Source: Conexibacter sp. DBS9H8
GTDB taxonomy: Bacteria; Actinomycetota; Thermoleophilia; Solirubrobacterales; Solirubrobacteraceae
Direction: 5' to 3'
Assembly (NCBI RefSeq): GCF_023330685.1
Contig: NZ_CP097128.1
Span: 1,798,001 to 1,862,000, forward strand
DNA: 64,000 bases
Below are positions 35,431-63,027 of this stretch, piece after piece (position 1 is the stretch's first letter; each line of letters begins with the position of its first letter). The position numbers and the translations under genes are program-made. The notes under the pieces are model-generated. The model saw only the letters and a list, made by a program, of their open reading frames with translations, searched no databases and was not told the DNA's origin.

Positions 35431-35457
35431 TCAAGGTCGCCTCGTTCCCGCCGATGA
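35431..35457 (+). promoter_or_regulatory. Sigma-28-type promoter of the murein-hydrolase / glycosyltransferase run
   Basis: TCAAG (35431-35435), 14 nt, then GCCGATGA (35450-35457). The -10 octamer is identical to that of the flagellin promoter and differs from the enterobacterial FliA -10 (GCCGATAA) at one base. The ATG at 35471 is 13 nt downstream, with GGAG between. Confidence 0.7.
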
Positions 35458-35470
35458 CGGGAACTGGAGC

Positions 35471-36286
35471 ATGAGCATCACCGACGCGCTCACCCGAATC
35501 GCCGACATTCAGCAGCAGTTCGCCGCCCTCAACGCCGGCCCGGCCGCGCTCGCCGCCGGTCCGGGCGCCGTCGCCGTCGCCGCCGCCGGGGCGAGCGCCG
35601 GCGCCGCGACGGCGGGCAACGGCGCGCCGACTGCGATGACCCCGACGCCGTCGACCGTGACCGGGATGCCCCAGAGCGCGGCCGCGTTTGCCGCCGCTCT
35701 GGCTGCTGCTCAGGCCGCCGGGGCCCAGCCCTCGGGAACCCCGATGTCGGCCGGCGCCCTTGCCTCCGGGCTCGGGACCCTGATCGGCGCTGGTGCGGGC
35801 ACCGGCACGGCCGGTTCGCTGTCTGGAGGGGTGGCGCCCGCCGCGGTCGCCCTGCCTCCCGCGGCGACCGCCCAGCTCACCGGCGCCCAGCAGCAGTTCG
35901 CCTCCACGCTCGTCGCCCAGACCGGCCTCAACCCGGCGGTCGTCAGCGCCTGGCTGCTCGCGGAGGAGAGCGGCTCAGCCGCGCAGGCCCGGCAGGCGGC
36001 CAACAACAACGACTGGCTCAACGTCGGCTACACCGACAGCGGCACGGTCGGGGCCGCGGATGCCGTGTGGTCGAACCCTGTCAGCGCGGCGACCGCGACC
36101 GCCCAGTGGCTCGAGGGGCAGGCGTCGATCCCCGGTTACGCGACGGCCTCCAGCGGCATCCAGGCGATCCTCTCGACCGTCGGTGCCTCTCCCCAGGCTC
36201 AGATCAGTGCCCTGCAGTCCTCGGGCTGGGCCTCAAGCCGGTATCCGGATCTCCCGTCGCTCTACGCGCAGGTCACGGGGGGCTGA
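35471..36286 (+). CDS. Flagellum-associated murein-hydrolase-like protein
   Basis: This 271-residue protein begins MSITDALTRIADIQQQFAAL, the N-terminal pattern of actinobacterial flagellar-locus peptidoglycan hydrolases. An Ala/Gly/Thr/Pro-rich linker (about 22-130) follows, then a lysozyme-like domain (about 135-270) with FASTLVAQTGLNPAVVSAWL, a Glu pair in AEESG and NNNDWLNVGYTDSG. It has no signal peptide, so it may be exported by the flagellar apparatus like FlgJ. A sigma-28-type promoter directly upstream supports a motility role. The catalytic class (glucosaminidase or lytic enzyme) is not certain. Confidence 0.6.
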   Translation: MSITDALTRIADIQQQFAALNAGPAALAAGPGAVAVAAAGASAGAATAGNGAPTAMTPTPSTVTGMPQSAAAFAAALAAAQAAGAQPSGTPMSAGALASGLGTLIGAGAGTGTAGSLSGGVAPAAVALPPAATAQLTGAQQQFASTLVAQTGLNPAVVSAWLLAEESGSAAQARQAANNNDWLNVGYTDSGTVGAADAVWSNPVSAATATAQWLEGQASIPGYATASSGIQAILSTVGASPQAQISALQSSGWASSRYPDLPSLYAQVTGG

Positions 36287-36289
36287 GAG

Positions 36290-37843
36290 ATGGCGATGAC
36301 CGAGGCGACGCGCACGCACGCCGCGCTGGCCAACCTCGAGGAGCTCGCCGAAGCTCCGGAGCTCCTCGCCGCCTGGTCGGCGTGCGTGGGCCCCCATGAC
36401 CCCGTCACGCTCGTCGTCGTTCCGGGGGGCTGGGATCCCGAGCGGGTCCAAGCCGAGGCGCCGGCGCTGTTCGCCCGAGCCGGCCTGGATCAGGGCGAGG
36501 CATCCCCGGATATCGTCGTGATGACCGGACCGCTCGACGAGGTCGACTTCATCCGGCTGTCGGGCAGCTGCACGGCCATCTTCGGGGCCGCGCCCGTGCC
36601 GGCGGAGCTCGCGGAGCTTCCGCGCATCGGCGCCGACGAGCTCCCGGAGTGGACGGCGGCACGCACGGCGCCGGACGCCGACGACGCGACGGTGTGCGCC
36701 CAGGATGTGCGGGTCATCTCCGAACGTCCGGGCGTCAACGTCATCGGCTATGTGAGCGGATCGCTGGGGCTCGGCATCGCCGCCCGGGCGACGATCGCGG
36801 CGCTGCTCGCCGCCGATGTCGATGTCGCGGTGGTCGACGTGTCGCTCGGGGCGCGCTCGAACGCCGACACGTCCTACCACCACCTGCGGGTCGACAACCT
36901 CCAGTCCCTGCCTCACGCGGTGAACCTCATCCACTACAACCCGGACGACGCCTCGGTGCTCTGGGAGCGGTTCCCCGCCTGGTTCGCGGGTGGGGTCAAC
37001 TGCATCGTCCCCTTCTGGGAGCTGGTGGACCTCCCGCCGGGGTGGCTCGCACCGCTGGCCCGCTACGACGTCGTGCTCGCCCCCACCGCGCACATCGCCG
37101 CCGCGGTGAGTCGGGCCGTGTCGGTGCCCGTGCGCCGCTTTCCGATGGCAGCCGACGTCGGTCACGTTCCCGCGATCGATCGCTCCGAGTTCGGGATTCC
37201 CGAGGGGAAGGTCGCCTTCGCCACGAGTTGGGACACCAACAGCGGCCTGGAGCGCAAGAACGGTACCGGCGTGGTCCGTGCCTTCGCAGCCGCACTCGAC
37301 TTCGGCGCCGACGCGGTGCTGGTGATCAAGCTCAACGGGGACGTCACCGACCCGCTGTTCCTGCGGGAGCTGTCCAGACTGCCCGCGGACCGGGTCGTGG
37401 TGATCTCCGACTACCTCCCCTACAGCCGCGTGCTGGGGCTCTATGCCGCCTGTGACGCCTACATCTCCCTGCATCGCGCGGAGGGACTGGGGCTGGGCAT
37501 CCAGGAGGCCATGCAGCTGGGCAAGCCGGTGATCGCCACCGGCTGGTCGGGGAACATGGATTTCATGGACGAGGAGTGCGCCGCCGTGGTCGATTTCCGC
37601 CTCACCCCGGTCGTCGACGGCCACCCCTGCTACTCGCCGCCGCAGTATCCGGGCGGGGGACTCTGGGCCGAGCCCGATCTTCTCGTCGCCGCGCGCCACA
37701 TCCACCGGCTGGCCGGCGACGCGGCCGCCCGGACCCGGCTCGGGGCCGCCGCGCGGGGCCGCGGGCGCGCCTATCGCGAGCAGTGGCTCAGGACCGCCCC
37801 GCGACAGCTCGCGGCGGTGTCCGGCGCGCTGCGCCGACGCTGA
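36290..37843 (+). CDS. Glycosyltransferase family 4 protein
   Basis: This 517-residue enzyme has an unusual 120-residue N-terminal region before the GT-B core, in which NVIGYVSGSLGLGIAARATIAALL begins the first Rossmann domain. The C-terminal domain shows WDTNSGLERKNGTGVVRAF and the donor-binding signature HRAEGLGLGIQEAMQLGKPVIA with the two glutamates of the E-x7-E motif. It starts 3 nt after the murein-hydrolase gene, so both share the sigma-28-type promoter. Modification of flagellin or of a related surface glycan is inferred from this linkage. Confidence 0.85.
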   Translation: MAMTEATRTHAALANLEELAEAPELLAAWSACVGPHDPVTLVVVPGGWDPERVQAEAPALFARAGLDQGEASPDIVVMTGPLDEVDFIRLSGSCTAIFGAAPVPAELAELPRIGADELPEWTAARTAPDADDATVCAQDVRVISERPGVNVIGYVSGSLGLGIAARATIAALLAADVDVAVVDVSLGARSNADTSYHHLRVDNLQSLPHAVNLIHYNPDDASVLWERFPAWFAGGVNCIVPFWELVDLPPGWLAPLARYDVVLAPTAHIAAAVSRAVSVPVRRFPMAADVGHVPAIDRSEFGIPEGKVAFATSWDTNSGLERKNGTGVVRAFAAALDFGADAVLVIKLNGDVTDPLFLRELSRLPADRVVVISDYLPYSRVLGLYAACDAYISLHRAEGLGLGIQEAMQLGKPVIATGWSGNMDFMDEECAAVVDFRLTPVVDGHPCYSPPQYPGGGLWAEPDLLVAARHIHRLAGDAAARTRLGAAARGRGRAYREQWLRTAPRQLAAVSGALRRR

Positions 37844-37857
37844 GTCTCCACCGCCGC

Positions 37858-37884
37858 TCAAGGATGCGCGGGAGCGCCCGATCT
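37858..37884 (+). promoter_or_regulatory. Sigma-28-like promoter of the DegT-family gene
   Basis: TCAAG (37858-37862), 14 nt, then CCCGATCT (37877-37884), which keeps the CCGAT core. The ATG at 37896 is 11 nt downstream, as in the other two glycosylation transcripts. It is the weakest of the six members. Confidence 0.5.
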
Positions 37885-37895: not shown

Positions 37896-39149
37896 ATGCT
37901 TCTCTCCTCCACCACGCCGATCCGGGGCGTCCGCAGCTCGCGTGCGCGCACGGCTCTGAACACCGTGACGCTCGGCACCTTCGAAGCGACCCCGGCGGCC
38001 CGTCGCTATGTCGATGACGTCCTCACGACGGGTCGGCTCTCCTACGGCCCGTACTCCAGGCGGTTCGAAAGTGAATTCGCCGCGATCCACCAGTCCGCGT
38101 CCGCGGTGGTGTCGAGCAGCGGTACGGCCGCCCTGCAGGTCGCCCTCCAGGCCATGAAGGAGGTCGACGGCTGGGCGGATGGCGACGAGGTGATCGTCCC
38201 GGCGGTGACCTTCGTGGCCACGGCGAACATCGTGTTGCACAACAACCTCAGGCCGGTGCTCGTCGACGTCGAACCGGACTTCTACGGCTTGGAGCCGGCC
38301 GCCTTCGAGGCGGCGATCACTCCGCGCACGCGAGCGGTCATCCCGGTGCACCTGTTCGGCCAGCCCTGCGACATGACCGCGATCATGGCCATCGCGAGCC
38401 GCCACGGACTCCGCGTCCTCGAGGACAGCTGCGAGACGATGTTCGCCCGTCACGCGGGTCGTATGTGCGGGTCCTTCGGTGACGCCGCCGCCTTCTCGAC
38501 CTACATCGCCCACCTGATCGTGACCGGCGTGGGCGGGTTGACGACGACGTCGGACGCGGACCTGGCGGCCATCACCCGCTCGCTCATCAATCATGGCCGT
38601 GACGGCATCTACATCTCGATCGACGACACGGGATCCAGCCGGGTCGAGCGGGAGATGATCGTCGACCGCCGCTTCCGCTTCGACCGGGTCGGGCACTCGG
38701 CCCGGATCACCGAGCTCGAAGCGGCCCTGGGTGTGGCCGCGCTGGAGACGTGGGAGGAGATGGTGGCCATCAGGCGCACCCACGGCGCGTATCTCACCGC
38801 ACGCCTGAGCGAGGTGAGCGACCGCATCCAGATCCCAGCACGGCGGCCCGAGACCGACCACTCGTTCATGATGTTTCCGCTCGTCCTCCATGACGAGCCC
38901 AAGCGCGAACTCGTGCAGCACCTCGAGTCCACGGGAATCGAGACGCGGGACATGCTCCCGATCCTCACCCAACCCGTCTACCGAGACGGGAACCTGCTCG
39001 ACGCGACACCCGGCCGCCACCCGACCGCGGAGTGGATCGACCACTCGGGGTTCTACGTCGGCTGCCATCAGGGCCTGGGCGCCGAGCAGCTCGAGCACCT
39101 GGCTGACACGATCATCGCGTGGTGTCGGACGGCTCCTCTGAGTCGATGA
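37896..39149 (+). CDS. DegT/DnrJ/EryC1 family sugar enzyme with His at the PLP-lysine position
   Basis: This 417-residue protein has the fold-type I aminotransferase pattern: SSSGTAALQVALQAM for cofactor phosphate, VPAVTFVATANIVLHNN, VIPVHLFGQPCDM and LRVLEDSCETM. Where aminotransferases have the PLP-binding lysine it reads FSTYIAHLIVTGVGG, with H206 (codon 38511-38513). The dehydrases ColD and RfbH (E1), which use PMP and remove a sugar hydroxyl, also have His there. A sugar 3-dehydrase-type or related step is therefore more likely than transamination. It is flanked by glycosyltransferases and overlaps the next gene by 4 nt (ATGA). Confidence 0.8.
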   Translation: MLLSSTTPIRGVRSSRARTALNTVTLGTFEATPAARRYVDDVLTTGRLSYGPYSRRFESEFAAIHQSASAVVSSSGTAALQVALQAMKEVDGWADGDEVIVPAVTFVATANIVLHNNLRPVLVDVEPDFYGLEPAAFEAAITPRTRAVIPVHLFGQPCDMTAIMAIASRHGLRVLEDSCETMFARHAGRMCGSFGDAAAFSTYIAHLIVTGVGGLTTTSDADLAAITRSLINHGRDGIYISIDDTGSSRVEREMIVDRRFRFDRVGHSARITELEAALGVAALETWEEMVAIRRTHGAYLTARLSEVSDRIQIPARRPETDHSFMMFPLVLHDEPKRELVQHLESTGIETRDMLPILTQPVYRDGNLLDATPGRHPTAEWIDHSGFYVGCHQGLGAEQLEHLADTIIAWCRTAPLSR

Positions 39150-40726
39150 CGGAGATCCTGGGCTGGGCCAGCGTGCTCGGCGACCGTGGCGGATACGGGA
39201 ACGCGGCGCGCAACTTCGTGCGCGGTCTCCGTGACGCCGGGTCCCCGCCGGCGCTGGCGCAGATCGGCCCGACCGATCCCGACATCGGTGAGCGGGATCA
39301 GCAGCTGCTGCGGGACCTCGCCCACGGGGACCTCGCGGGCGTCGACACGATGGTCGCCCACGTGCCCCCGCCGATGCTCGTCGACCTCGTCCCCCGGCTG
39401 CGCGCGGTCGCGGGCACCCCGGTGGCCGCCTGCACGATCGCCGAGACCGACCGCCTGTCCGCCGAGTGGGCCGCCGCCTGCAACCTGGCCGACGAGGTGT
39501 GGGTCCCGACCACCTTCAACCTGCTCACCTTCGCCGCCTCGGGCGTCGACCCGCACAAGCTGCGCCTTGTGCCCTACGGGATCGATGGCGAGGCGTGGGA
39601 GCCCCTCGGGCTGGTGAACCGCAGCGTCGCGCCCGACGACCACTTCGTGTTCCTCTACACGTTCCAATTCGACTGGCGCAAGGGCTTCGATCTGCTGCTG
39701 GCGTCCTACCTCCAGGAGTTCACGCGAGCGGATCCGGTGACCCTCGTGCTGAAGATCTTCGAGCCGCCGGGGGCGGTGCGGAGCATCCGCGCGCGTCTCG
39801 CCGAGTCGATCCTCGACCGGGTCGACCTGCTCTCCGAGGACCTGCCGCGGGTGGTCATCATCGACGAGGCGCTCGAGCGCGAGGCGCTCGCCGCTCTGCA
39901 CCGGCGGGCGGACCTCTACATCTCGACGGACCGGGCCAACGGTTGGGGCATGCCCTGCATGGAGCAGATGGCGATGGGCAAGGCGGCGGCCTGCATCGAC
40001 TGGTCCGGCAGCACCGAGTTCATGCACGCCGACAACGCACTGCTCATCCCCGCGCGCGTTCCGCTCGTGCCGGTGGACGCCCGCCTGCAACGCGAGCGTC
40101 CCGATTACCGCGGACAGCGCTGGGCGGAGGCGAGCGAGGCCGACGTCCGGGCGGTGATGCGGTCCGCGTTCGCCGGGGAGGTGGACCTGGCTCGCCTCGG
40201 TGCGGCGGCACGAGCGGAGATCCTCGAGCGTTGGTCGCTCGCGGACTCGGCACGCTGGATCGCCGGCCGGGACGCCGGGGCCTACACCCCCGCCCCCGGA
40301 CTGGCGTCGCGGCTGCGTCCGATGGTCGGGCTGAGCGAGCATGGCGTGTACGCGAACCCCCACCCCCGGATGCTCGCCTGCGACGCCGCGCATCTCTCCG
40401 ACGCCGACCTGGCTGGGACACTGAGCGCCTACGCCGCGGCCTTCCCCGCCGACACCCCGGTGGCGCTCGTGCTCGCCGGTGATCCGGCGCGCATCACAGG
40501 TCGGGTGATGGCGGCGTTCCAGGCGATCGGCGTCGACCCCGACGACATCGCTGACGCCGTCGTCGGGGCCGAGATCGGTGATGTGCTGGCCGATCCGCGG
40601 CTCGTCGGCCTGATCGGCGCCGGCCGTTGGCCCGATGGCCTCACCACGGCTTGCGCCGCCGACCCCGAGGCACTGCGCGCCGCGCTGGACCGCTCAGCCC
40701 CGCCGGTGTTCGCCTCGCTGCCCTAG
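39146..40726 (+). CDS. Glycosyltransferase family 4 protein
   Basis: This 526-residue protein begins with ILGWASVLGDRGGYGNAARNF, a typical GT4 acceptor-domain opening. The middle has FLYTFQFDWRKGFDLLLASYL and the donor signature ISTDRANGWGMPCMEQMAMGKAAA. The last 120 residues form an extra domain rich in Ala and Asp. The ATG at 39146 overlaps the DegT stop; a GTG at 39119 would add nine residues. The stop is followed closely by a truncated gene on the opposite strand. Flagellin or surface glycan assembly is inferred. Confidence 0.82.
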   Translation: MTEILGWASVLGDRGGYGNAARNFVRGLRDAGSPPALAQIGPTDPDIGERDQQLLRDLAHGDLAGVDTMVAHVPPPMLVDLVPRLRAVAGTPVAACTIAETDRLSAEWAAACNLADEVWVPTTFNLLTFAASGVDPHKLRLVPYGIDGEAWEPLGLVNRSVAPDDHFVFLYTFQFDWRKGFDLLLASYLQEFTRADPVTLVLKIFEPPGAVRSIRARLAESILDRVDLLSEDLPRVVIIDEALEREALAALHRRADLYISTDRANGWGMPCMEQMAMGKAAACIDWSGSTEFMHADNALLIPARVPLVPVDARLQRERPDYRGQRWAEASEADVRAVMRSAFAGEVDLARLGAAARAEILERWSLADSARWIAGRDAGAYTPAPGLASRLRPMVGLSEHGVYANPHPRMLACDAAHLSDADLAGTLSAYAAAFPADTPVALVLAGDPARITGRVMAAFQAIGVDPDDIADAVVGAEIGDVLADPRLVGLIGAGRWPDGLTTACAADPEALRAALDRSAPPVFASLP

Positions 40727-40837: not shown

Positions 40838-42666
40838 CAGCGCACCGACCCGGCCCCGGTCGCCAGCCCCGCCTGCGCCCGGCGCGGCCCGCCGCGCCAC
40901 CCCGCGAGGACCTGTGCGATCGCCTCGGGTGCGCAGGCGGCCACGACACGTCGCGCCCGATCGGCGCGGGCCGGCGCGGACCGATCGGCGCTCGCGAGGG
41001 CACGCCGGAGCTCAGCGGGTGTCTCCAGGCTCACCGAATGAGGGTCGAGACCGAGCACGTGGGCGGCCGGACCACCGGGTCCGGCCCCCACCACGGCCGC
41101 CCCGACGCCCGCGGCGACGAGCAGCCGCCGTTCGCAGACGTCCCACGGGTCGAGGCTGAGCACGACGTCCGCTTCCGCGGCGAGCGTCGCAAACCTCGTC
41201 TCATCGGCACAGGGGCCGAGCAGCTCGGCCCCGGGGAGCCGAGCGGCCAGCTCGGCGTCGAGCCCGCGAACCGTGGCGGCGGGCAGGATCCGCAGCTCGA
41301 TCCCGCCCGGCAGCCGCGACAGAGTCGCCAGCGTCGCGTCGGCCTGGGCGGGGAGGTGGGTGGGGAGGAGGGCGAGGATGCCCGCCCCGCCCCCGCCCGG
41401 CGGGTGGGGGGCAACCGTCGGGGGCACGAGCTCGAGCCGGGCGGGCGCGATCCCCGCCGCAGCCGCCGTGGCGAGCATCGCCGGGCTCGGGCACCAGACC
41501 GCCGTGGCGCCGGCGAGGTCGGGGCCGAGCCGACCGCCGAGCAGCCGGACGGTCAGCGGCGAGCCGGGCAGGTCAAGGGCGGGGCCCGCGGTACCCACGC
41601 GGATCACCGGTACCCCGGTCGGCAGGCTCGCGCGCCGGGCCCGCTCGGCGGCCTGCGCCGCCGCGCCGGTGCCGCGGGCGACGAGCAGGCTGGCGGGGAG
41701 ATCGACGGCCGCGGGCGTCCAACCGGTCGCCTCGAGGCTGAGCAGCAGGGCGCGGGTTTCGTCACCGAGCGGCCCGATCCCCGCGGGGGCGCCGAGCACG
41801 AGCACGTCACCGACCGCGGCGGGATCCCGGGCCGGTGGGTGACGCTCGAGCCGGGCGTCCCAGACGGCGGCGGCGAGGTCGTCGTCGGGCCCCAGCAGCG
41901 TTCCCCAGCGGCTGATGAAGCGGCGGTCGTTGCCGGCCATCCGGGCGGCCCGCTCCGGGGTCAACCACTGGGCGGCGCCCTGTCCGCGGGAGGCGCCCTC
42001 ATGGTGGATGATGCTGACGTCGCCGCGGTAGACGATCCGGCCCCCGACGCTGCGCAGCTTCAGGCACAGGTCGACGTCCTCGAGCCCGTCGACGTAGCCT
42101 TCGTCGAAGCCGCCGACGGAGGCGAAGGCGCTCGTCGAGACGGCGACACAGGCGGCGGTGACGCAGTCGGCCTCCCAGCGGCCGGTACTCGCCGCGAGCT
42201 CTCCCTCACGGTGGTGGAGGACGTGTTCGGCCATCGCGGCGCCGCCGTGGGCCGGGGAGGCGAGGAAGGCGACCCCGGCGTGCTGGAGGGTGCCGTCGGG
42301 GTAGAGCAGACGACAGCCGGCGGCGGCGACGCCCGGCTCGCGGGCCTGCTCCGCAAGGGTCTCCAGGGCTCCCGGAGCCACCTCTGTGTCGTTGTTGAGG
42401 AAGACGAGGACGTCCCCGGAGGCGAGGCGGGCCCCGTGGTTGCAGCCCGCGGCGAAGTGGACGTTCTCCTCCAGCAGGCTGACGGTCGCCCGGTCCGTCC
42501 AGCCCACCAGCAGCTGCCGGGTGTCGTCGGGGGAGGCGTTGTCGACGATCACCAGCTCCCAGTCGTCGCCGAGCCGGGTTCCGAGACAGCGCTCGAGGGA
42601 GGCGAGGCACGCCTCCGTGCGGGCACGCTGCCCGTAGGTGACGATGATGATCGAGCTCACCGGCAT
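40837..42666 (-). CDS. GT2 glycosyltransferase with a second GT-like half
   Basis: This 609-residue protein has an N-terminal GT-A domain (about 1-260): SIIIVTYGQRARTEACLASL, the metal-binding FLNNDTEV and EDVDLCLKLRSVGG, all typical of rhamnosyltransferase-like GT2 enzymes. Residues from about 290 form a GT-B-like half with weak signatures (WCPSPAMLATAAAAGI, ADVVLSLDPWDVCERRLLVAAG). The ATG at 42666 overlaps the end of the triple glycosyltransferase by 10 nt. A longer upstream open frame is an artefact of high GC. It is the second gene of the minus-strand glycosylation operon. Confidence 0.82.
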   Translation of the reverse strand: MPVSSIIIVTYGQRARTEACLASLERCLGTRLGDDWELVIVDNASPDDTRQLLVGWTDRATVSLLEENVHFAAGCNHGARLASGDVLVFLNNDTEVAPGALETLAEQAREPGVAAAGCRLLYPDGTLQHAGVAFLASPAHGGAAMAEHVLHHREGELAASTGRWEADCVTAACVAVSTSAFASVGGFDEGYVDGLEDVDLCLKLRSVGGRIVYRGDVSIIHHEGASRGQGAAQWLTPERAARMAGNDRRFISRWGTLLGPDDDLAAAVWDARLERHPPARDPAAVGDVLVLGAPAGIGPLGDETRALLLSLEATGWTPAAVDLPASLLVARGTGAAAQAAERARRASLPTGVPVIRVGTAGPALDLPGSPLTVRLLGGRLGPDLAGATAVWCPSPAMLATAAAAGIAPARLELVPPTVAPHPPGGGGAGILALLPTHLPAQADATLATLSRLPGGIELRILPAATVRGLDAELAARLPGAELLGPCADETRFATLAAEADVVLSLDPWDVCERRLLVAAGVGAAVVGAGPGGPAAHVLGLDPHSVSLETPAELRRALASADRSAPARADRARRVVAACAPEAIAQVLAGWRGGPRRAQAGLATGAGSVR

Positions 42667-46435: not shown

Positions 46436-46462
46436 TGGTCGGCCGCTTCGAGGTCTCCTTGA
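46436..46462 (-). promoter_or_regulatory. Sigma-28-type promoter of the triple glycosyltransferase operon
   Basis: On the minus strand TCAAG (46462-46458), 14 nt, then GCCGACCA (46443-46436). The GTG start at 46424 is 11 nt further. The same strand layout and spacing occur at flagellin, fliO and cheW. Confidence 0.65.
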
Positions 46463-47626: not shown

Positions 47627-47653
47627 TCATCGGCCGGTGTCGTCGCGACTTGA
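47627..47653 (-). promoter_or_regulatory. Sigma-28-type promoter of flagellin
   Basis: TCAAG (47653-47649), 14 nt, then GCCGATGA (47634-47627) on the minus strand. This is close to the FliA consensus TAAAGTTT-N11-GCCGATAA. The 5' leader would be about 60 nt and has a good ribosome-binding site. Confidence 0.75.
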
Positions 47654-52863: not shown

Positions 52864-52867
52864 GGCG

Positions 52868-53931: not shown

Positions 53932-53956
53932 CGGGTCAGGGGGGCCGGCATCGGGA

Positions 53957-54592: not shown

Positions 54593-55125
54593 CGCTGGGT
54601 AATCCGCCGGAGCGTGTCGAGGGCGCGGGCACGGCCATCGGGGTCGGTCACCCCGCGCAGGCCTCCGAGGCCAAGCCCGAGGCCACCGAGGCTGAGCGGG
54701 CTGGGGCGCCCGGCCCCGGGCGTGCCGGGCGGGGAGACCGGCAGCCCCGCCTCCACCGCCTCGTCTTCGCTGAAGCGGTGGATCGAGGTGACCGTGTGCG
54801 CCCCGACGCCGAGCAGGTGCAGCTCGCTGCCGACGCGGACGAGCGCGACCGACTGTCCGGCGCCGAGGGGGAGGGAGGCGATGCGCTCGAGCCCCTCGCC
54901 GGCGCTCACGAGATCGCGGCCCTTGAGCTTGCGGATCAGCCAGGTGAGCCCGTAGATGACCGCGATGACGATCGCCAGGGCGACGACGGTGCGGAGAATC
55001 CCGCCGCCGGCGCCGGCGCTCACGTGCGCGGCCGCGGTCGGGGTGAGGTGGATCCGCGTCGCCTCAAACCCCGTGTCGGGGGCGGGGACGGGGATATGGG
55101 CGTGGGCAGGGGCGTGCGACTTCAT
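54589..55125 (-). CDS. fliO: Flagellar protein FliO
   Basis: This 178-residue protein has a His/Pro-rich external N-terminus (about 1-40), one membrane helix (about 44-64) and a cytoplasmic domain with the FliO pattern LERIASLPLGAGQSVALVRVGSELHLLGVG. FliO helps FliP assemble. The Gly/Leu/Pro-rich segment (about 130-160) is unusual. It is the first gene of its operon and is preceded by a sigma-28-like promoter. Confidence 0.85.
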   Translation of the reverse strand: MKSHAPAHAHIPVPAPDTGFEATRIHLTPTAAAHVSAGAGGGILRTVVALAIVIAVIYGLTWLIRKLKGRDLVSAGEGLERIASLPLGAGQSVALVRVGSELHLLGVGAHTVTSIHRFSEDEAVEAGLPVSPPGTPGAGRPSPLSLGGLGLGLGGLRGVTDPDGRARALDTLRRITQR

Positions 55126-55162: not shown

Positions 55163-55189
55163 TGATCGGCCGGGGCGGGCGGGACTTAA
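55163..55189 (-). promoter_or_regulatory. Sigma-28-type promoter of the fliO operon
   Basis: TTAAG (55189-55185), 14 nt, then GCCGATCA (55170-55163) on the minus strand. The fliO ATG at 55125 is 37 nt further, with GGAG between. It lies in the 125-bp gap after cheY. Confidence 0.6.
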
Positions 55190-55250: not shown

Positions 55251-55610
55251 TCAGGCGAGCGCCTTGCCGACCGCCTCGAGGACCCGTGCGGCTTGGAACG
55301 GCTTGACGACGAAGTCCCGCGCCCCGAGCTTCACCGCCTGGAGGACCTTTCCCTCCTGGCCCAGCGCCGAGCACATCACGACCTTGGCGGCCGGGTCGAT
55401 CGCCATGATCTCGGCGAGCGCGGCGAGGCCGTCCTTCTCCGGCATCGTGATGTCGAGGGTGGTGAGCTCGGGCTTGAGCTCCTGGAAGCGGTTGACGGCT
55501 TCGGCGCCGTTCCCCGCCTCCCCGACGATCTCGTGCCCTCCGGAGGTGAGGGCGTCAGAGAGCATCTTGCGCATGAACGCGGCATCGTCGACAACGAGCA
55601 CTCGGGCCAT
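55251..55610 (-). CDS. cheY: Chemotaxis response regulator CheY
   Basis: This 119-residue single receiver domain has the acidic residues D8-D9, phosphoacceptor D53 in LDITMPEKDG, the T/S81 switch position (CSALGQ) and K103 in VVKPF. Phosphorylated by CheA, it binds the motor switch through FliM. It begins 2 nt before the end of fliN and is the last gene of the chemotaxis operon. Confidence 0.93.
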   Translation of the reverse strand: MARVLVVDDAAFMRKMLSDALTSGGHEIVGEAGNGAEAVNRFQELKPELTTLDITMPEKDGLAALAEIMAIDPAAKVVMCSALGQEGKVLQAVKLGARDFVVKPFQAARVLEAVGKALA

Positions 55611-55611
55611 G

Positions 55612-56562
55612 TCAGTGGGGTCCTTTCAGGATCGGTTGCGCTTCGGGTTCAGACAGGGAGGAGATGCCGGCAAACGCGAGTGAGCTGGTCTGGCGCAGGC
55701 TCGCGTGGGTGACCGATTCGACCTCGATCGCCCATTCGCCGTCCTCGGTGATGAGCAGGCGCCCGTGCCCGAAGCAGAGCCCGTTGACGAACAGGTCGAC
55801 GGGAGCCTCGGCGGTGCGGTCGAGTTCGACGAGGGCGCCGGCGGGGAGCTCGATCGCCTCACCGAGGGCCATCTCGGCCCGGCCGAGCTCGGCCCAGACC
55901 CGCAGCCGGGTGCCGCTGAGCGCCTCGCCGACGGAGATCGGCCGGGCATCGGCATGTTGGGGGTGGCCGCCGTTGGCCGCGTCGACGGCGACCTCGAAGC
56001 TGCGCTCCTCGATCGCCCGGGCTATCCGCACGACGAACGCGCTCGGCACGAGCTGGATGAGCCGGCAGCCCTCCCCGGCGATCGTGAAGGTCGTGCTCGC
56101 CGAGTACGGCGCCTGCCCGTAGATGTCGCGGATCTCGGCGGTGCTGTTGAGCAGGCGCACGTCCGGCGGGGAGATCGCGATCTCCTGGCCGATCACGACG
56201 CTCGTCGCGGCGGCCGCGGCGGCGAGGGTCTGGTTGGCCGCCTCACCGACCGCGGACATCTCGAGCTCACTGAGCGGGCCGTCCGGTTCGGGGGGTACGC
56301 CCATCGCCCCCGCGAGCGCCCGCGCGCACGGTTGGCTCATCAGGAAGATGTTCGCCCCGGTGACGCCGTCGACGTAGCTCACCGACGCGGCGAGGGCTGG
56401 CTCGGGCAGCCCGGTGAACGGGCTCGACGCGTCCGGGATGACGGTCACCTCACCGCGCTCGACGGTGCCGGGGGCGAGCATCTCGAGGGTCCGGGCGACC
56501 GCTTCCGCGGTCGCGGCACCGAGCTGGGTGAGCGCCTGGCGCTGGGGCAGGATGGCGGCCAT
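55612..56562 (-). CDS. Flagellar motor switch protein FliN/FliY type (CheC-like plus SpoA domains)
   Basis: This 316-residue protein is longer than enterobacterial FliN (about 137) and resembles Bacillus FliY. The N-terminal two thirds are CheC-like, with LSELEMSAVGEAANQTLAAA, where the E-x-x-N motif of the CheY-P phosphatase occurs. The C-terminal SpoA domain (about 215-290) has LRVWAELGRAEMALGEAIEL and VDLFVNGLCFGHGRLLI. It would both form the C-ring and help dephosphorylate CheY. The ATG overlaps the fliM stop by one base (TGATG). Confidence 0.9.
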   Translation of the reverse strand: MAAILPQRQALTQLGAATAEAVARTLEMLAPGTVERGEVTVIPDASSPFTGLPEPALAASVSYVDGVTGANIFLMSQPCARALAGAMGVPPEPDGPLSELEMSAVGEAANQTLAAAAAATSVVIGQEIAISPPDVRLLNSTAEIRDIYGQAPYSASTTFTIAGEGCRLIQLVPSAFVVRIARAIEERSFEVAVDAANGGHPQHADARPISVGEALSGTRLRVWAELGRAEMALGEAIELPAGALVELDRTAEAPVDLFVNGLCFGHGRLLITEDGEWAIEVESVTHASLRQTSSLAFAGISSLSEPEAQPILKGPH

Positions 56563-57527
56563 CAGTCGAGGCCCTCGGCTCCGAGGATCTGCACGGCGCG
56601 GCGGGCGCCGCGGACCCCCGGCTTGGCCCGTCCGAGCCGGGTGTTCTCGGCAAACAGGGAGATCCCCGCCTCGGCCCGGCCGCCGAGGCGCACGATCGAG
56701 CCCGGCCCGAGGGAGAGGATGTCGGCGATCTCCAGGTCGACGGCGGCCACCTCGGCGCGCAGGGTGATCGGCGCGGCGGCGAGGGCCCGCCCCATCCGCG
56801 TGTCGATCCCCTCCGCCCCGGAGGTCGTGTCCCGCCCGGCCACCCGGTCGGAGATCGGGTCGATCGCCTGCCACGGGATGAGCAGGGAGATCGAGCTCGA
56901 CCGCCGGTTGAGCCGCGCCTCGATCACCGCGGCGAACGTCGGCTCGGAGACCGAGGCGATCGCCGAGCTGTCGGTGTGGGACTCGATCTCACCGAGGCTG
57001 AAGCTCACGCCGCCGAGGTCGCGCCAGACGGCCGAGAGCTGGCTGACGAGCGAGGTGAGCAGCCGGCGGGTGAGGGCCCAGTCGATCTCGGAGAAGCGCC
57101 GCTCCCGCGGGGCGCGGTCGGCGCTGCCTCCGAGCAGGCACTCGATGCCGGCGAGGGCGAAGACGGATTCGACCATCAGCACCATCCGGGTGGCGATCGG
57201 GTCGGCCTCGAGGGTGACGGCGATCGAGTGGCTGGGCAGCAGCGCCTGGGCGGCGGACCAGGTGAGCTGCATCGTGTTGATCGTCTCGAACTCGACGGGG
57301 GCGCGCAGCTCCGCCGACAGCCGGGTACCCGCGGTCGCACAGAACGTATCGAGCGCGCGGGCGATGCGCCGCTGGTGGTCGGAGCTGAACTTCGTCGGGC
57401 GCGAGAAGTCGACCGAACGCAGCCGCGGCTGGCGTCGGGGGGTGCCGGCGGCCTCGGGAACCTGGCCGGAGCGGGCGGCTTCGAACAGTGCGGTGATCTG
57501 ATCGGGGCTGAGCGAGTCCGAGCTCAT
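56562..57527 (-). CDS. fliM: Flagellar motor switch protein FliM
   Basis: This 321-residue switch protein begins with the CheY-P binding motif LSPDQITALFEAA. The middle domain (about 40-230) has PTKFSSDHQRRIARALDTF and FALAGIECLLGGSAD, and the C-terminal SpoA domain (about 245-310) includes LRAEVAAVDLEIADILSLG. It connects CheY-P to rotor direction. Its start overlaps the cheD stop (ATGA). Confidence 0.94.
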   Translation of the reverse strand: MSSDSLSPDQITALFEAARSGQVPEAAGTPRRQPRLRSVDFSRPTKFSSDHQRRIARALDTFCATAGTRLSAELRAPVEFETINTMQLTWSAAQALLPSHSIAVTLEADPIATRMVLMVESVFALAGIECLLGGSADRAPRERRFSEIDWALTRRLLTSLVSQLSAVWRDLGGVSFSLGEIESHTDSSAIASVSEPTFAAVIEARLNRRSSSISLLIPWQAIDPISDRVAGRDTTSGAEGIDTRMGRALAAAPITLRAEVAAVDLEIADILSLGPGSIVRLGGRAEAGISLFAENTRLGRAKPGVRGARRAVQILGAEGLD

Positions 57528-58012
57528 GCGAGCACCGCCCGGCCGAGCACGAGCAGGACGTTGCGCTCGAGGCCGGCCATCTGGGAGGTGACCTCGCCGC
57601 CGACCTGGACGCGGGCGGTCCGCCCCCGAATGCCGCCGACGTCGGTGGCGCTGATCGGGATCCCCGCGCTCGTCAGCGCGGCGGTCACCGCCTCGGCGTT
57701 GCGGGCCCCGATGTCAAGCCCGGTCGCGAACATCCGCGCGCCACCGATCAGGACCGCCCGCAGCCGCCGGCGTCGCGCCCCGGCGCCGAGGACGGCGGCG
57801 AGGAGGGCCGGGACGGCCGTGTCCGCATATTTGCCGGGTTGGTCGCTTCCGCCGCCGGGGCTGGTGGAGAGGACGACGTGGGCAAGGCCCGCCACCGGCG
57901 CCTCAGAGTCACAGAGCGCGAGGGCGATACAGGATCCGAGTCCAACGACGGCGAGCTCGTCTCCCAGCGTGTCGGCGACCTTCAGTTCACCCATGCGCAC
58001 GTTCGCGAGCAT
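57524..58012 (-). CDS. cheD: Chemoreceptor glutamine deamidase CheD
   Basis: This 162-residue enzyme deamidates receptor glutamines and binds CheC. The catalytic cysteine is C28 in GLGSCIAL, and the histidine is in LAHVVL. The Thr that lies six residues before the Cys in Thermotoga CheD is Val here. GGARMFATGLDIGARNAEAV is a family segment. It follows cheC by 4 nt, as is usual for this interacting pair. Confidence 0.92.
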   Translation of the reverse strand: MLANVRMGELKVADTLGDELAVVGLGSCIALALCDSEAPVAGLAHVVLSTSPGGGSDQPGKYADTAVPALLAAVLGAGARRRRLRAVLIGGARMFATGLDIGARNAEAVTAALTSAGIPISATDVGGIRGRTARVQVGGEVTSQMAGLERNVLLVLGRAVLA

Positions 58013-58016
58013 CGGG

Positions 58017-58616
58017 CTAGGCGCCGCCGGAGGCGAGGCCGAGCGGGGCGAGGAGGTGGCTGATCGCGTCGGCCTCGGCGATCAGCAGGAAGCTGATCGC
58101 GCACGGCTCGCCGGCGACGTCGAGTTCGGAGTCCAGCAGCAGGGCGGTGTCGTCGGCCCCGGCGGCCTGGGCGAGCATCGAGGCGACGACGGCGCCGAGC
58201 ATGTCGGTGGCCGAATGGGGCGGGCAGGGGAGGAGCTCATGGCCGGTGATCGCGCCGATCGCGCTCAGGTAGCCGGCCCCGAGGATGTTCCCGATCTCAC
58301 ACAGCGCCGAGTCGCCGATCTCACTGTCCGGTTCGACGCCGAGCAGGCCACACAGCGCGGCTGCGCCGGCCTCATCGATGAGCAGCAGGACGGCGCCGCT
58401 GATGTCCCCGTCGACGGGCAGGGCGACGGCGGTCACCGTCTCCGACGGCTCCCCGACAGCGTCGACGGCGTCGGCAAACGGGAGGGCGAGGGCCCGGGGC
58501 ACCGACAGCCCGATCTCGCGGCCGAGCATCTGGGAGAGGGAGGTCGCCGCCGTTCCGGAGGCGATGTTCGCCAACTCCCTGAGGGCGTCGAGCTGGCTCT
58601 CGTTGTACGTGGTCAC
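58017..58616 (-). CDS. cheC: CheY-P phosphatase CheC
   Basis: This 199-residue protein has both active-site E-x-x-N motifs: RELANIASGTAATSLSQML near the N-terminus and CEIGNILGAGYLSAI in the second half. CheC removes phosphate from CheY and is stimulated by CheD. It sits between cheA and cheD, as in Gram-positive adaptation systems. Confidence 0.92.
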   Translation of the reverse strand: MTTYNESQLDALRELANIASGTAATSLSQMLGREIGLSVPRALALPFADAVDAVGEPSETVTAVALPVDGDISGAVLLLIDEAGAAALCGLLGVEPDSEIGDSALCEIGNILGAGYLSAIGAITGHELLPCPPHSATDMLGAVVASMLAQAAGADDTALLLDSELDVAGEPCAISFLLIAEADAISHLLAPLGLASGGA

Positions 58617-58624
58617 GAATGCTC

Positions 58625-60580
58625 CTATCCGTTGGTTCGCGACGGGGCCGGTGGGGCGGGAGGGGCCGCCGCGCCGGATCCGAGGTTCGGGATCAGTGCG
58701 TCACAGTCGACGATCAGGGCGATCTGGCCGTCCGCGAGGACGGCCCCGCCGGAGACGGGCTGGCCCTCGGTGGCGACCGGCGGCAGCGGGCGGGTGACGA
58801 GCTCGCGCTGGCCGACGAGCGCGTCGACGGTGAGCCCGACACGGCCGGTGGCACCGCGGACGATGACGACGAGATCCTCGGTGCCCGTCGGTGTCTGCCC
58901 GAACGTGGCGGCCCCGTCGAGCAGGGGGATGATCCCGTCGGCGAGGGCGAGGACCCGGCGGCCGGTGACCGAGCGGACGTTCTGCTCGCTCAGGCGCAGC
59001 GCGCGTTCGACGCGATCGATCGGCAGCGCGAAAGAGGCTCCGGCGATGTCGACCTGCAGGACGGAGACGATCGCGAGGGTGAGCGGCAGGCGGATCTGGG
59101 CGCTTGTGCCTGCCCCGCGGGTCGACTCGACGAGCACCTCGCCGCCGAGCTCGCGGACCTTCGCCCGCACCGCGTCCATCCCGACGCCGCGACCGGAGAT
59201 GTCCGAGGTCGTCTCCGCGGTCGAGAAGCCGGGGGCGAAGAGCAGCTCGATCGCGGCTCGCGTGTCGATCGAGGCGACCGCATCGGGGTCGATCAGCCCG
59301 GCCGCGGCCGCCTTGGCGGCGACGGCTTGGGGGTTGATCCCGCGCCCGTCGTCACGCACCTCGATGACGACGCTGCCGCCGCTGTGGCGGGCGGCGATGG
59401 TGAGCCGGCCGAGCCGCGGCTTGCCCGCCGCCTCCCGTTCGGCCGGCGGCTCGAGGCCGTGGTCGAGGCTGTTGCGGACAAGGTGGACGAGCGGATCCCC
59501 GAGCGCATCGACGACGCTGCGGTCAAGCTCGGTGTCCCGGCCGAGCAGGTCGAGCTCGACCTCCTTGTTCAGCTTCGTGCTGAGGTCTCGGACGAGGCGG
59601 GGGAAGCGCATGAAAACGACGTCGACCGGGATCATCCGCACCTGCATCACCATCGACTGGAGGGCCTGGGAGGAGCGGGTGAGGTTCTGCATCGCGCTGT
59701 TGAGCGCGGCTGAGCCGAGCCCCTGGGTGTGCACCTCCACAGCCGTCCGGTGGATCACCAGCTCTCCCATCAGGTGCATCAGCTGGTCAAGCCGTTCGGC
59801 GTCGACTCGGACGGTCTGGGCGCTGTGGTTCGCGTAGACGGCATGGGGGCGCGGCCCCGGCGTCTGCGCGGCCTCCTCTGCGGCGGGAGCGGCGGCCGGC
59901 CCGGTGGTGACAGGAGCCGGCGACGCTCCCGGCAGCTCACCGGTGTGCTCGGTCACCTCGACGGCGGCAACGTCGGAGACGCGGGTGATCGCGGCGGCGA
60001 GCTCGCTCGGAGCCTGCTCGGTCGTCACCCACGCTTCGATCTCCAGGCCCTTGAAGGTGTCGAGATCGTCGGGGCCGGGGAGGCTCGAGTTGATCGCCCC
60101 GTGCTCACCGAGCGCGGCAAGCACCATGTGAGCGCGGACGGCCGGCATCACGGTCGCCTCGTCGAGGGAGACGAGCACGTGCATCACCTGGCCGGCGGCG
60201 GTCGTCCGCACGAGCCGGGCGAGACGGTCGATCAGCAACGCCGGATCGAGGTCCTCGCGACCGACCTCCTCGATCGAGTCGACCGCCGCCGACAGCGCGT
60301 CGAGGCAGGCGAGAACGGCGTCGACCGCGTCCTGGGAGAGCCCGCCAGAGCGCTGGCGCAGCAGCTCGAACACCTCCTCCATCTCATGCGTCAGCGCGGC
60401 GATCTGGGCGAACCCCATCGTCGCCGACATCCCTTTGAGCGAGTGAGCGATCCGGAAGATCTGATCGACGGTCTCACGGTCGGCCGGGTCGTTCTCCAGG
60501 GCGACGACGGCGAGGTTGAGGTCCTGGAGATGCTCGCGGGACTCGGCGAGGAACATCGGCATGTATTCGGAGGTGTCCAT
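58625..60580 (-). CDS. cheA: Chemotaxis histidine kinase CheA
   Basis: This 651-residue kinase has the HPt domain with phosphorylated H46 (RIAHSLKGM), an HPt-CheY-binding linker (about 110-250), dimerisation helices (about 270-335; RVDAERLDQLMHLMGELVIH), the ATPase domain with LVRNSLDHGLE and DDGRGINP, then SGRGVGMDAV, and a C-terminal CheW-like domain (about 515-640). The start ATG 60580 overlaps the cheR stop (TGATG). It transmits receptor signals to CheY and CheB. Confidence 0.96.
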   Translation of the reverse strand: MDTSEYMPMFLAESREHLQDLNLAVVALENDPADRETVDQIFRIAHSLKGMSATMGFAQIAALTHEMEEVFELLRQRSGGLSQDAVDAVLACLDALSAAVDSIEEVGREDLDPALLIDRLARLVRTTAAGQVMHVLVSLDEATVMPAVRAHMVLAALGEHGAINSSLPGPDDLDTFKGLEIEAWVTTEQAPSELAAAITRVSDVAAVEVTEHTGELPGASPAPVTTGPAAAPAAEEAAQTPGPRPHAVYANHSAQTVRVDAERLDQLMHLMGELVIHRTAVEVHTQGLGSAALNSAMQNLTRSSQALQSMVMQVRMIPVDVVFMRFPRLVRDLSTKLNKEVELDLLGRDTELDRSVVDALGDPLVHLVRNSLDHGLEPPAEREAAGKPRLGRLTIAARHSGGSVVIEVRDDGRGINPQAVAAKAAAAGLIDPDAVASIDTRAAIELLFAPGFSTAETTSDISGRGVGMDAVRAKVRELGGEVLVESTRGAGTSAQIRLPLTLAIVSVLQVDIAGASFALPIDRVERALRLSEQNVRSVTGRRVLALADGIIPLLDGAATFGQTPTGTEDLVVIVRGATGRVGLTVDALVGQRELVTRPLPPVATEGQPVSGGAVLADGQIALIVDCDALIPNLGSGAAAPPAPPAPSRTNG

Positions 60581-61431
60581 CAGCTCTTGCGGTAGATGAA
60601 CGGGTACGCGGAAGCGAGCCCGAGCTCGGCGGCGTGGGCGACCCGCTCGGTCGAGCCGACCATCAGGAAGCCGCCGGGGCGCAGGGCGCTCGCCAGCCGG
60701 GCGTGCAACTGATCGCGGATCGGTTCGTTGAAGTAGATCACGGTGTTGCGACACAGGATCAGGTCATAGGAGCCCGGCCGGGGGGACATCGTCAGCAGAT
60801 CCCCGAGCTCGAAGCTCGTCATCGCCATCAGCCCCGGCTTGGCCTGCCAGTTTCCCTCGGTCTCCGCGAAGCCGGCGAGCAGCTTGGCCCGCGGGGCGCT
60901 GCGCGCGTCCTCCTCACTGAACCGGCCCCGCCGCGCCCGGGCGATCATGCGCCGATCGATGTCGGTGCCGTGGATCGTGACGCGCAAGCGCGAGCCCGCG
61001 CCGGCCAGGTGACAGAGGGCGGCGAGCGTGTACGCCTCGGCGCCGTAGGAGCAGCCCGCGCTCCAGGCGTTGATGCCTCCCCGCTCGGCGAGTGCGGGGA
61101 TCAGCTTCGCCTCGATCAGGTCCCACTGCTCGGGGTTGCGCCACAGCTGGCTGACGTTGATCGTCACCCGGTCGAGCAGTTCGCTGAGGTGGGTGGCGTC
61201 GCCGCGGAGCGCCGGGAAGCTGTCGCGCAGGTCGGTGACCCCCCGCTGGGCGTAGAACGAGCGCAGGCGCCGTTCCATCTGCGGCCGCTTGTACTGGAGC
61301 AGCTCGATGCCGCAGAGCTGCTGGAGGAACAGGCAGAAGTCGACGTAATCGTCGGAGGTCGCCGGGCGCGGGCGCGGGTAGGTGCGCCGGTTGGCCCCGG
61401 TGCGGGCGGGTCCGTCGGTGCTGAGGCTCAT
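60580..61431 (-). CDS. cheR: Chemoreceptor methyltransferase CheR
   Basis: This 283-residue enzyme methylates receptor glutamates with SAM. The N-terminal helical domain (about 25-80) precedes the SAM-binding domain: NAWSAGCSYGAEAYTLAAL is the glycine-rich SAM motif, and LILCRNTVIYFNEPIRDQL is the conserved motif with the catalytic region. It is coupled to cheB upstream (ATGA) and cheA downstream. Confidence 0.95.
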   Translation of the reverse strand: MSLSTDGPARTGANRRTYPRPRPATSDDYVDFCLFLQQLCGIELLQYKRPQMERRLRSFYAQRGVTDLRDSFPALRGDATHLSELLDRVTINVSQLWRNPEQWDLIEAKLIPALAERGGINAWSAGCSYGAEAYTLAALCHLAGAGSRLRVTIHGTDIDRRMIARARRGRFSEEDARSAPRAKLLAGFAETEGNWQAKPGLMAMTSFELGDLLTMSPRPGSYDLILCRNTVIYFNEPIRDQLHARLASALRPGGFLMVGSTERVAHAAELGLASAYPFIYRKS

Positions 61432-62477
61432 CGGGCTTCCTCTCTGATCGCATCAACCAGTTCGGTCAAGGAGAGAACCTCGTCGGCGAGATCGGCCTCG
61501 ACGACGGCGCGCGGCATCCCGTAAACGGTGCAGCTCTCCTGCTCCTGCACGAGCACGCGCCCGCCGTGACGCTTGACCGCGCCGGCGCCGAGCAGCCCGT
61601 CCTCCCCCATCCCGGTGAGCACGACGAGCAGGGTGCGCTCGCCGAACACGCGAGCCACGTCAGCGATCGTGAGATCCGCCCGCGGACGCAGCGCGCCGAT
61701 CTCCGGCTCGTCACTGAGCTGGGTGCGTCCGGAGTCGTCGAGACGCAGGTGCCGGCCGCCGGGAGCGAGCAGCGCGACGCGCGGGTCGAGGATTTCACCG
61801 CCGACCGCCTCCTGCACGGTGAGGGCAGACGCCTGGTCGAGCCGGGCGGCGAGGGACCGGGTGAAGTTCGGCGGCATGTGCTGGACGATCAGCGTCCCGA
61901 CCCCGAGGTGATCGGGCAGGCGGGGGACGAGCTCCGCAAGGGCCCGCGGCCCTCCGGTGGAGGTGGCGATGATGACCGCACGGGCGTGTTCGGTCCGCAG
62001 GCTCGCGCCGCGCAGGCGGCCGCGGTGCACTCTCTCGCCGGCGCCGGCCCGTCCACCGAGCAGTCCGGAGGTCGCCGCCTTGACCTTCTCCACGAGCTGG
62101 GTGGCGAACCCGTCGAGACCCTCGCCCGCCGCCGGTTTGGGCACGAGGTCGAACGCGCCCTCAGCGAGGGCGTCAACGGCCCGCGCACCCTGGCTGGGGA
62201 AGAAGGCCGAGACGACGACAACCGGCAGCTGCGGTGCGCTGGCCTGGAGTCGCTTGAGGACGCCGATCCCGTCAAGACCGGGCATCGTCAGGTCCAGCAT
62301 CAGCGCGTCCGGACGCTCCCGCTCACAGACCGCGAGCGCCTGGTCGCCGTCAGCGGCCGACCCGACGACGCGGATGCCCGCGCGGGTCAGTGACGCGGAG
62401 ACGATCTGGCGCATCAGCGCGCTGTCGTCGGCGACGACAACGCGGGCGGGTGGCGGCTCGGTGTCGAGGACAGGCAT
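61428..62477 (-). CDS. cheB: Chemoreceptor methylesterase CheB
   Basis: This 349-residue protein joins a receiver domain (phosphoacceptor D62 in LMLDLTMPGLDG) to a methylesterase domain. The catalytic triad is visible as S173 (IATSTGGPRA), H200 (VQHMPPNF) and D293 (GMGEDG). It removes receptor methyl groups for adaptation. It follows cheW by 27 nt and overlaps cheR. Confidence 0.95.
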   Translation of the reverse strand: MPVLDTEPPPARVVVADDSALMRQIVSASLTRAGIRVVGSAADGDQALAVCERERPDALMLDLTMPGLDGIGVLKRLQASAPQLPVVVVSAFFPSQGARAVDALAEGAFDLVPKPAAGEGLDGFATQLVEKVKAATSGLLGGRAGAGERVHRGRLRGASLRTEHARAVIIATSTGGPRALAELVPRLPDHLGVGTLIVQHMPPNFTRSLAARLDQASALTVQEAVGGEILDPRVALLAPGGRHLRLDDSGRTQLSDEPEIGALRPRADLTIADVARVFGERTLLVVLTGMGEDGLLGAGAVKRHGGRVLVQEQESCTVYGMPRAVVEADLADEVLSLTELVDAIREEAR

Positions 62478-62504
62478 GCGCGGACGGGACGGTGGCGGCC
62501 CGGG

Positions 62505-62945
62505 TCAGGCCGCGACGAGGTGGTCCTGAGGGGCAAAGATCGTCGAGGGTCTCAGCAGGACGACGAGCCGGTCCCCGAGTTTGGCGATCGACTCGATCAG
62601 CTCGCTGTCGGCGCCGGGCACCTCCTCATATCGGTCCGCCTCGACGGTGAGGACCTCCTCGACCTCGTCGACGATCACCCCGGCGATCTCCGTGCCCGCC
62701 TCAACGATGACGATCTTGGTGATCTCGGTGAGACCGGCCTCCAGGCCGAGCCGGGCGGCGAGGTCGTAGACGGGGACGATCCGGCCGCGCAGGCTGATCA
62801 CCCCGCGCACCCATGGGATCCGGGAGGCGACCGACCGCGGTTCGTTGTAGCGGATGATCTCGTGCACCTGCTCGATCGGCAGCGCGTACTGCTCGGACCC
62901 GAGGGTGAACACGACAAGTTGGCGGGCGCGGCTGGCGTCGGGCAT
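62505..62945 (-). CDS. cheW: Chemotaxis coupling protein CheW
   Basis: This 146-residue SH3-like adaptor links receptors to CheA. Signatures are VVFTLGSEQYALPIEQVHEI and WVRGVISLRGRIVPVYDL. It is the first gene of the chemotaxis-flagellar operon. An AGAAGGA ribosome-binding site precedes the ATG, and a sigma-28-type promoter is about 55 nt upstream. No receptor (MCP) gene is in the window. Confidence 0.95.
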   Translation of the reverse strand: MPDASRARQLVVFTLGSEQYALPIEQVHEIIRYNEPRSVASRIPWVRGVISLRGRIVPVYDLAARLGLEAGLTEITKIVIVEAGTEIAGVIVDEVEEVLTVEADRYEEVPGADSELIESIAKLGDRLVVLLRPSTIFAPQDHLVAA

Positions 62946-63000
62946 CGGTCGTCCTTCTGTGAACGGTCATCGCGCCGGTCTCGGTGGCGCTTTCCCCCGG

Positions 63001-63027
63001 TGTTCGGCGCGAGCGACGGTTGCTTGA
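63001..63027 (-). promoter_or_regulatory. Sigma-28-type promoter of the cheW operon
   Basis: TCAAG (63027-63023), 14 nt, then GCCGAACA (63008-63001) on the minus strand. It begins one base before the start codon of the divergent glycosyltransferase. A less regular candidate at 62994-62967 is also possible. Confidence 0.6.

Follow-up and report, generated by a model that had tools for sequence, protein, structure and literature searches.

What switches on the flagellar genes of Conexibacter sp. DBS9H8, and do the early and the late genes answer to the same switch? The question is raised by a 64,000-nucleotide stretch of its genome (the window; bases 1798001-1862000 of the 3,636,119-base single contig NZ_CP097128.1), in which an earlier note had picked out six copies of one promoter, starting at 35431 (+), 37858 (+), 46462 (-), 47653 (-), 55189 (-), and 63027 (-), and had proposed a sigma-28 regulon. 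The coordinates and letters of the six sites were confirmed. Together with three further sites in the rest of the flagellar cluster, their assignment to the FliA/WhiG promoter class is near certain. As judged from the sequence, it is very probable that they are sigma-28 promoters with S2, a sigma factor encoded within the cluster, as their most likely main reader, and the identity of the reading sigma as S2 is in itself likely. The sites and the genes behind them are as follows, in window coordinates (nt, nucleotides; aa, amino acids):

35431..35457, +, promoter TCAAG-N14-GCCGATGA, core end 17 nt from the start of the gene for a 271-aa protein
35471..36286, +, 271-aa protein of unknown family, no match in Pfam (E up to 0.01) or PHROGs (E up to 1)
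36290..37843, +, glycosyltransferase (Glycos_transf_1), probably in the same operon as the 271-aa gene
37858..37884, +, weaker, doubtful promoter-like site TCAAG-N14-CCCGATCT ahead of the DegT gene, outside the tight-pattern matches
37896..39149, +, DegT/DnrJ/EryC1 aminotransferase
39119..40726, +, glycosyltransferase
42657..46424, -, 1255-aa glycosyltransferase, one stretch being GT2-type and two GT4-type
46436..46462, -, promoter TCAAG-N14-GCCGACCA ahead of this multi-domain glycosyltransferase
46730..47557, -, flagellin (fliC)
47627..47653, -, promoter TCAAG-N14-GCCGATGA ahead of flagellin, present in part of the relatives
48129..55125, -, export operon fliO, fliP, fliQ (by position, not scanned), fliR, flhB, flhA, and an SRP54-type GTPase (flhF-like)
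55163..55189, -, promoter TTAAG-N14-GCCGATCA ahead of the fliO export operon
55251..62945, -, chemotaxis/switch operon cheW, cheB, cheR, cheA, cheC, cheD, fliM, fliN-like, cheY-like
63001..63027, -, promoter TCAAG-N14-GCCGAACA ahead of cheW

At all six sites exactly 14 nt separates the AAG box from the CCGA box, and a start called on the same strand lies 15-73 nt past the end of the CCGA core (6/6), placing every site upstream of a gene on the right strand, as had been claimed. The pattern YYAAG-N14-SCCGA (the loose pattern) matched the window 6 times, compared with a mean of 0.79 and a maximum of 3 in 100 dinucleotide shuffles. The DegT site (CCCGATCT) fails the tight pattern (THAAG-N14-GCCGAHBA, tightened after the window sites were known) and ranks weakest; it is doubtful, and a single site of this kind could be a chance match. 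The label of murein hydrolase that the earlier note had given to the 271-aa protein found no support in the family searches.

The flagellar cluster spans 54 kb (1.5% of the genome), of which 24.5 kb adjoin the window on its far side. Three further sites lie in this part, ahead of fliJ, flgB-like, and flgF-like genes (genome coordinates):

1868765, -, site heading the fliJ-led hook and stator genes
1874613, -, site heading flgB-flgC-fliE-fliF-fliG-fliH-fliI
1881671, +, site heading flgF-flgG-flgN-like-flgK-flgL-fliW-csrA

FliJ, FlgD, FliD, FliG, MotA, and an FlgEFG-type protein were assigned by family searches, and the other names come from reading the translations and the gene order; the FlgB assignment, at 56.9 bits, falls just below its cut-off of 59.05. 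Across the nine cluster sites, the -35 box reads T in 9, C in 8 and T in 1, A in 9, A in 9, and G in 9, and the -10 box G in 8 and C in 1, C in 9, C in 9, G in 9, and A in 9. At seven of the nine, 12-73 nt separate the end of the core from a called start, and at the fliJ and flgF-like sites the motif begins 38 and 37 nt before an ATG found by script. A GCCGATAA-like -10, a TAAA(G)-like -35, and 14 nt between TAAAG and GCCGA are the marks of the FliA/WhiG class, and all are present here, the -35 deviating consistently in having C for A (TCAAG at 8/9 sites). The proposed FliA/WhiG-type regulon is the best reading, supported by a spacing and a -10 that fit the consensus, by flagellar, chemotaxis, and glycosyltransferase genes downstream, and by sharing in part of the relatives. 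Because the sites head these operons, export, basal body, hook, chemotaxis, and filament genes share one promoter type, and the earlier claim that the early fliO operon shares a promoter with the late flagellin holds at the level of sequence, as it does for the early operons flgB-fliF and fliJ. From this we infer a single-tier flagellar hierarchy, in which early and late genes would be turned on together. The gap from GCCGA to the start is just 12-17 nt at several operons (for example, window 46436-46462 and genome 1874587-1874613) and 73 nt at flagellin; the short gaps suggest nearly leaderless transcripts.

Could the sites be chance matches picked out by eye in a GC-rich genome? The loose pattern, which the earlier note had put forward for a genome-wide scan, gave 72 matches compared with 90 for the same pattern read backward, the control used here. 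It failed this specificity test, is therefore not diagnostic by itself, and was rejected as a genome-wide marker, and the count is the point in favor of chance. Set against it are the clustering, the tight-pattern excess, and a partial conservation in relatives, which leave chance highly improbable; for the six-site set it was ruled out by the shuffles together with the excess and the clustering. The tight pattern matched 13 times in the whole genome, compared with 2 controls, and 8/13 matches fall in the cluster (binomial P = 3e-12), so the enrichment before motility genes that had been proposed as a check was found. Likewise, 9/72 loose matches lie in the cluster (P = 1e-6). Only the figures from outside the window do not depend on the sites from which the pattern was drawn; there, 3/8 tight matches (P = 2e-5) and 3/66 loose matches (P = 0.01) fall in the adjoining 24.5 kb. 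Moreover, all nine loose matches in the cluster lie between genes called with a crude GC-frame gene caller; the other 63 comprise 46 within open reading frames (38 in the same orientation, 8 in the opposite one) and 17 between genes, the calls near the ends of the 3-kb loci being incomplete.

A FliA/WhiG-like factor encoded elsewhere had been implied, and a profile search of the genome with TIGR02479 returned 14 matches, two of them above the cut-off of 189.6 bits:

2212514-2213311, S1, WhiG-like sigma of 265 aa, 287.9 bits
1880828-1881652, S2, sigma of 274 aa, 197.7 bits

S2 lies inside the flagellar cluster, 19 kb beyond the window end, and its gene ends 18 nt ahead of the flgF-operon site. 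The statement that no sigma factor gene is in the window stands for this family, the one to which the search was confined, as none of the 14 matches falls inside. Three assignments of the promoters to these factors have to be weighed: S2 as main reader, S1 as main reader, and a shared reading. In the second, the WhiG-like S1, held by a dimeric single-motif RsiG at high cyclic di-GMP (c-di-GMP), would read the promoters, and S2 would have another or a minor role. S1 is the better family match, and an RsiG with the full motif is present in the genome. In the third, both sigmas would read the same promoters, c-di-GMP setting a floor via S1 and RsiG and S2 amplifying. The promoter-reading stretches of the two proteins are indeed alike (DELRxxDWxPRS; TLREIGExLGVTESRV), but S1 and S2 are just 37% identical and the recognition-helix stretch differs (SRVSQLHTKA and SRVCQIHAQL, respectively); we give shared reading somewhat less than an even chance.

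The distribution of the two sigmas bears on the choice. We compared two kinship groups, here called the order (35 genomes sampled) and the class (150 genomes of completeness 80% or more). Genomes with an flhA match at E up to 1e-60 were taken as flagellated (24/150 of the class), an S1 match required E up to 1e-25, and a sigma scoring better to S2 than to S1 was called S2-type; scoring was limited to the 16-17 best first-look candidates of each genome, so that an S2-type copy could have been missed. An S1 match is present in 124/150 class genomes, a few of them partial or cross-matches, and an S2-type sigma in 17/150. Within the order, S2 was found in 10/10 flagellated and 2/25 non-flagellated genomes (Fisher P = 4e-7), whereas S1 occurs regardless of flagella (10/10 and 19/25; P = 0.15). 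In addition, S2 and flhA are 4-34 kb apart in all eight relatives that carry both on one contig. The tracking of flagella by S2 and its place in the cluster count against S1 as main reader. Two genomes (G017 and G053) carry a second S2-type copy each. In the two order genomes with S2 and no flhA match (G115 and G136), the 20 kb surrounding S2 contained no match to the flagellar queries; in G115, a gene with a membrane-sensor-like N terminus is preceded by a tight-pattern site.

The promoter itself is shared by part of the relatives. We looked for T(A/C/T)AAG-N13-15-GCCGA between 220 nt upstream and 60 nt downstream of estimated gene starts in nine flagellated order relatives, leaving out genes with cut-off starts; near misses, for example GGCGA upstream of fliC in two of the relatives, did not count. 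Under these terms, first genes gave strict matches at fliC (4/8), fliO (4/9), cheW (3/4), flgB (1/6), and flgF (2/7), 14/34 in total, whereas operon-internal genes gave none at fliP (0/9), motA (0/6), or flgK (0/4), that is, 0/19 together; flgG, which is also internal here, gave 2/7, and fliD 0/5. In the fetched flagellar stretches, which are unequal in length, NNAAG-N14-GCCGA matched 101 times in 11 S2-bearing flagellates, compared with 30 on reversed sequence, and 28 times compared with 20 in 13 S2-less flagellates. This weakness of the signal in S2-less flagellates, where cheW gave 0/4, also counts against S1 as main reader. The tight pattern gave 70 matches and 17 controls in the 10 flagellated order genomes; flagellated and other genomes differ in matches (Mann-Whitney P = 0.002, or 0.005 without the genome studied here) and are alike in controls (P = 0.65). 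At the flagellin loci of named genomes, which include non-actinobacterial records, 17/59 have TCAAG or TAAAG-N14-GCCGA within ~115 nt and 42 do not. The large glycosyltransferase had no match in the relatives' fetched stretches and DegT one distant match (30% identity). We also considered whether the -35 letter (TCAAG or TAAAG) goes with the presence of S2; the idea was dropped, as both letters occur in S2-bearing and S2-less genomes.

Several results weigh against flagellar promoters read chiefly by S2. In this genome, no motif match lies upstream of fliD or of the S2 gene itself. Among the order relatives, 20/34 first-gene instances have no strict match, and fliJ gave 0/5. The tight pattern is also in excess in the 25 non-flagellated order genomes (89 matches compared with 39 controls), which would be consistent with an S1 regulon of non-flagellar function, and one S2-bearing flagellate (G145) shows no excess, with 3 matches and 4 controls. 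Across the class, S2 was found in 11/24 flagellated genomes and in 6/126 without flhA; because 13/24 flagellated genomes are without S2 and six genomes without flhA have it, S2 is not the flagellar sigma of the class as a whole. Furthermore, in S2-less flagellates 5/12 matches to T(A/C/T)AAG-N14-GCCGA precede cheA- or flhB-like genes (named by eye), so that S1-type factors may read the signal too, which favors S1 as main reader.

The same question was approached from the side of the anti-sigma factor. A single-motif RsiG homologue, which also matched solved RsiG chains, is encoded at 2460552-2460767 (-; 68.6 bits) and carries by eye the full c-di-GMP motif E-X3-S-X2-R-X3-H-X3-D in its H form. 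RsiG (PF22802) is present in 122/150 class genomes; S1 and single-motif RsiG are thus found in most of the class, with or without flagella. In the solved RsiG-WhiG complexes, K57, G61, and R62 of Streptomyces venezuelae WhiG contact c-di-GMP (PMC8325347). The corresponding K-G-R is kept in 14/14 S1-type proteins (31/38 sigma loci compared), and in this genome S1 has KGR and S2 KYR. In 12 S2-less flagellates, the glycine is likewise retained by 16/16 further S1-type copies (KGR in 15, RGR in 1), bringing the total to 30/30 for S1-type and 0/17 for S2-type proteins examined (Y in 11, S in 4, M in 1, and T in 1), the residue call for the most divergent S2-type proteins depending on the alignment. 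The other contact positions compared did not separate S1 from S2 of this genome. Loss of the contact glycine suggests that S2 may be free of RsiG, and we infer a pairing of S1 with RsiG in this genome from which S2 would have escaped.

A loose-pattern site at 2434316-2434339 (+) stands 12 nt ahead of a gene for a 1123-aa multi-PAS GGDEF protein (diguanylate cyclase), which hints that c-di-GMP genes may belong to the regulon, with feedback possible. The site echoes Rubrobacter, where diguanylate cyclase and phosphodiesterase genes are predicted WhiG targets according to the 2021 RsiG paper (PMC8325347), and is a further point for S1 as main reader. With the distribution, the cluster position, and the weak signal in S2-less flagellates on the other side, we consider that reading unlikely, though not negligible.

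Returning to S2 as main reader, RNA polymerase with a FliA/WhiG-family sigma would recognize T(C/A)AAG (-35) and GCCGA(T/C)NA (-10), 14 nt apart, and this one promoter type would jointly activate the genes for export, rod/hook, chemotaxis, and flagellin, probably along with those for flagellin glycosylation. S2 would be a sigma dedicated to flagella, probably released from the control of RsiG and serving early and late genes, and S1 a second, class-wide factor, with RsiG in the genome, that may share some of the promoters. As a tentative scenario that we think rather unlikely, a c-di-GMP-RsiG-WhiG switch first governed flagella in the Thermoleophilia and still does so in S2-less flagellates, whereas in this order S2 took over flagella, the promoter code being kept, the c-di-GMP contact lost, and swimming uncoupled from RsiG. 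The glycine in all sigma copies from the 13 S2-less flagellates and the presence of RsiG in 12 of them (it was not found in G131) speak for such an origin, but the weak promoter signal in these genomes speaks against it.

Other observations concern the surroundings of the sites and possible further targets. Glycosyltransferases and the DegT aminotransferase lie around flagellin (window 35471-46424; genome 1878412-1880655), some with sigma-28 sites, and form a possible flagellin glycosylation island. The nearest matches of the flagellin are three metagenome records titled Solirubrobacterales/Actinomycetes (62-68% identity), followed by Thermoleophilia, Conexibacter, and Patulibacter records. 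Between fliD and flgB lies the gene of an HD-domain (HD-GYP-like) protein (genome 1874644-1875792, -), a candidate c-di-GMP phosphodiesterase. The flgF operon closes with csrA, read from its translation, directly 3' of fliW (genome ~1886555, +), and flagellin may therefore also be regulated after transcription. Downstream of the tight site at 2875943 (+), a methyltransferase gene begins 55 nt from the core. As an independent target, the chemoreceptor gave no pattern match upstream of the sole methyl-accepting chemotaxis protein (MCP) gene above cut-off in the genome; by eye, this gene has GCCGATCA with its core 11 nt ahead of one possible ATG and no good -35. FlgM was set aside as the anti-sigma factor here, with no match above the Pfam cut-off in the genome (best score 14.6 bits against a cut-off of 25; FlgM in a divergent form is possible); it exceeded the cut-off in 2/26 genomes searched, and short matches in three relatives (G035, G106, and G017) led nowhere.

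A 2013 review described the roles of WhiG in the motility of simple motile actinobacteria as still unanalysed (PMC4255298), and the 2021 RsiG paper did its promoter work in Rubrobacter (PMC8325347). Among the matches listed in our literature searches, none examined these promoters experimentally in this class. The question raised here is whether c-di-GMP controls swimming via RsiG in this organism or the flagellar sigma has escaped, and it can be tested directly with the promoter list, the candidate sigma for the flagella, and the prediction at the level of one residue (the loss of G61) that this genome and its relatives supply.

The enteric FliA (sigma-28) recognizes a -10 of GCCGATAA 14 nt after TAAAG, and its targets are flagellin and chemotaxis genes. 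The regulon described here resembles it in the -10, in the 14-nt spacing, and in having flagellin and chemotaxis targets. It differs in that the -35 is mostly TCAAG (8/9 cluster sites), in that export, basal-body, and hook operons carry the promoter too, and in having no FlgM above the Pfam cut-off. The RsiG-WhiG system is likewise matched by a WhiG-like S1, a single-motif RsiG, and the same promoter consensus; there, however, the targets studied are type IV pili, diguanylate cyclase/phosphodiesterase, or sporulation genes, whereas here they are flagellar, and the flagella-linked S2 is without a c-di-GMP contact residue (PMC8325347). Actinoplanes missouriensis, with FliA1-3, offers another motile actinobacterium with several FliA-family sigmas, according to two reports (PMC11064477, PMC13293333), but it is a filamentous zoospore former and is reported to be without RsiG (PMC8325347). 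The regulon is thus a known, ordinary type of switch in a little-studied class, and its twist lies in the two sigmas, of which one has kept the RsiG contacts and the other has not.

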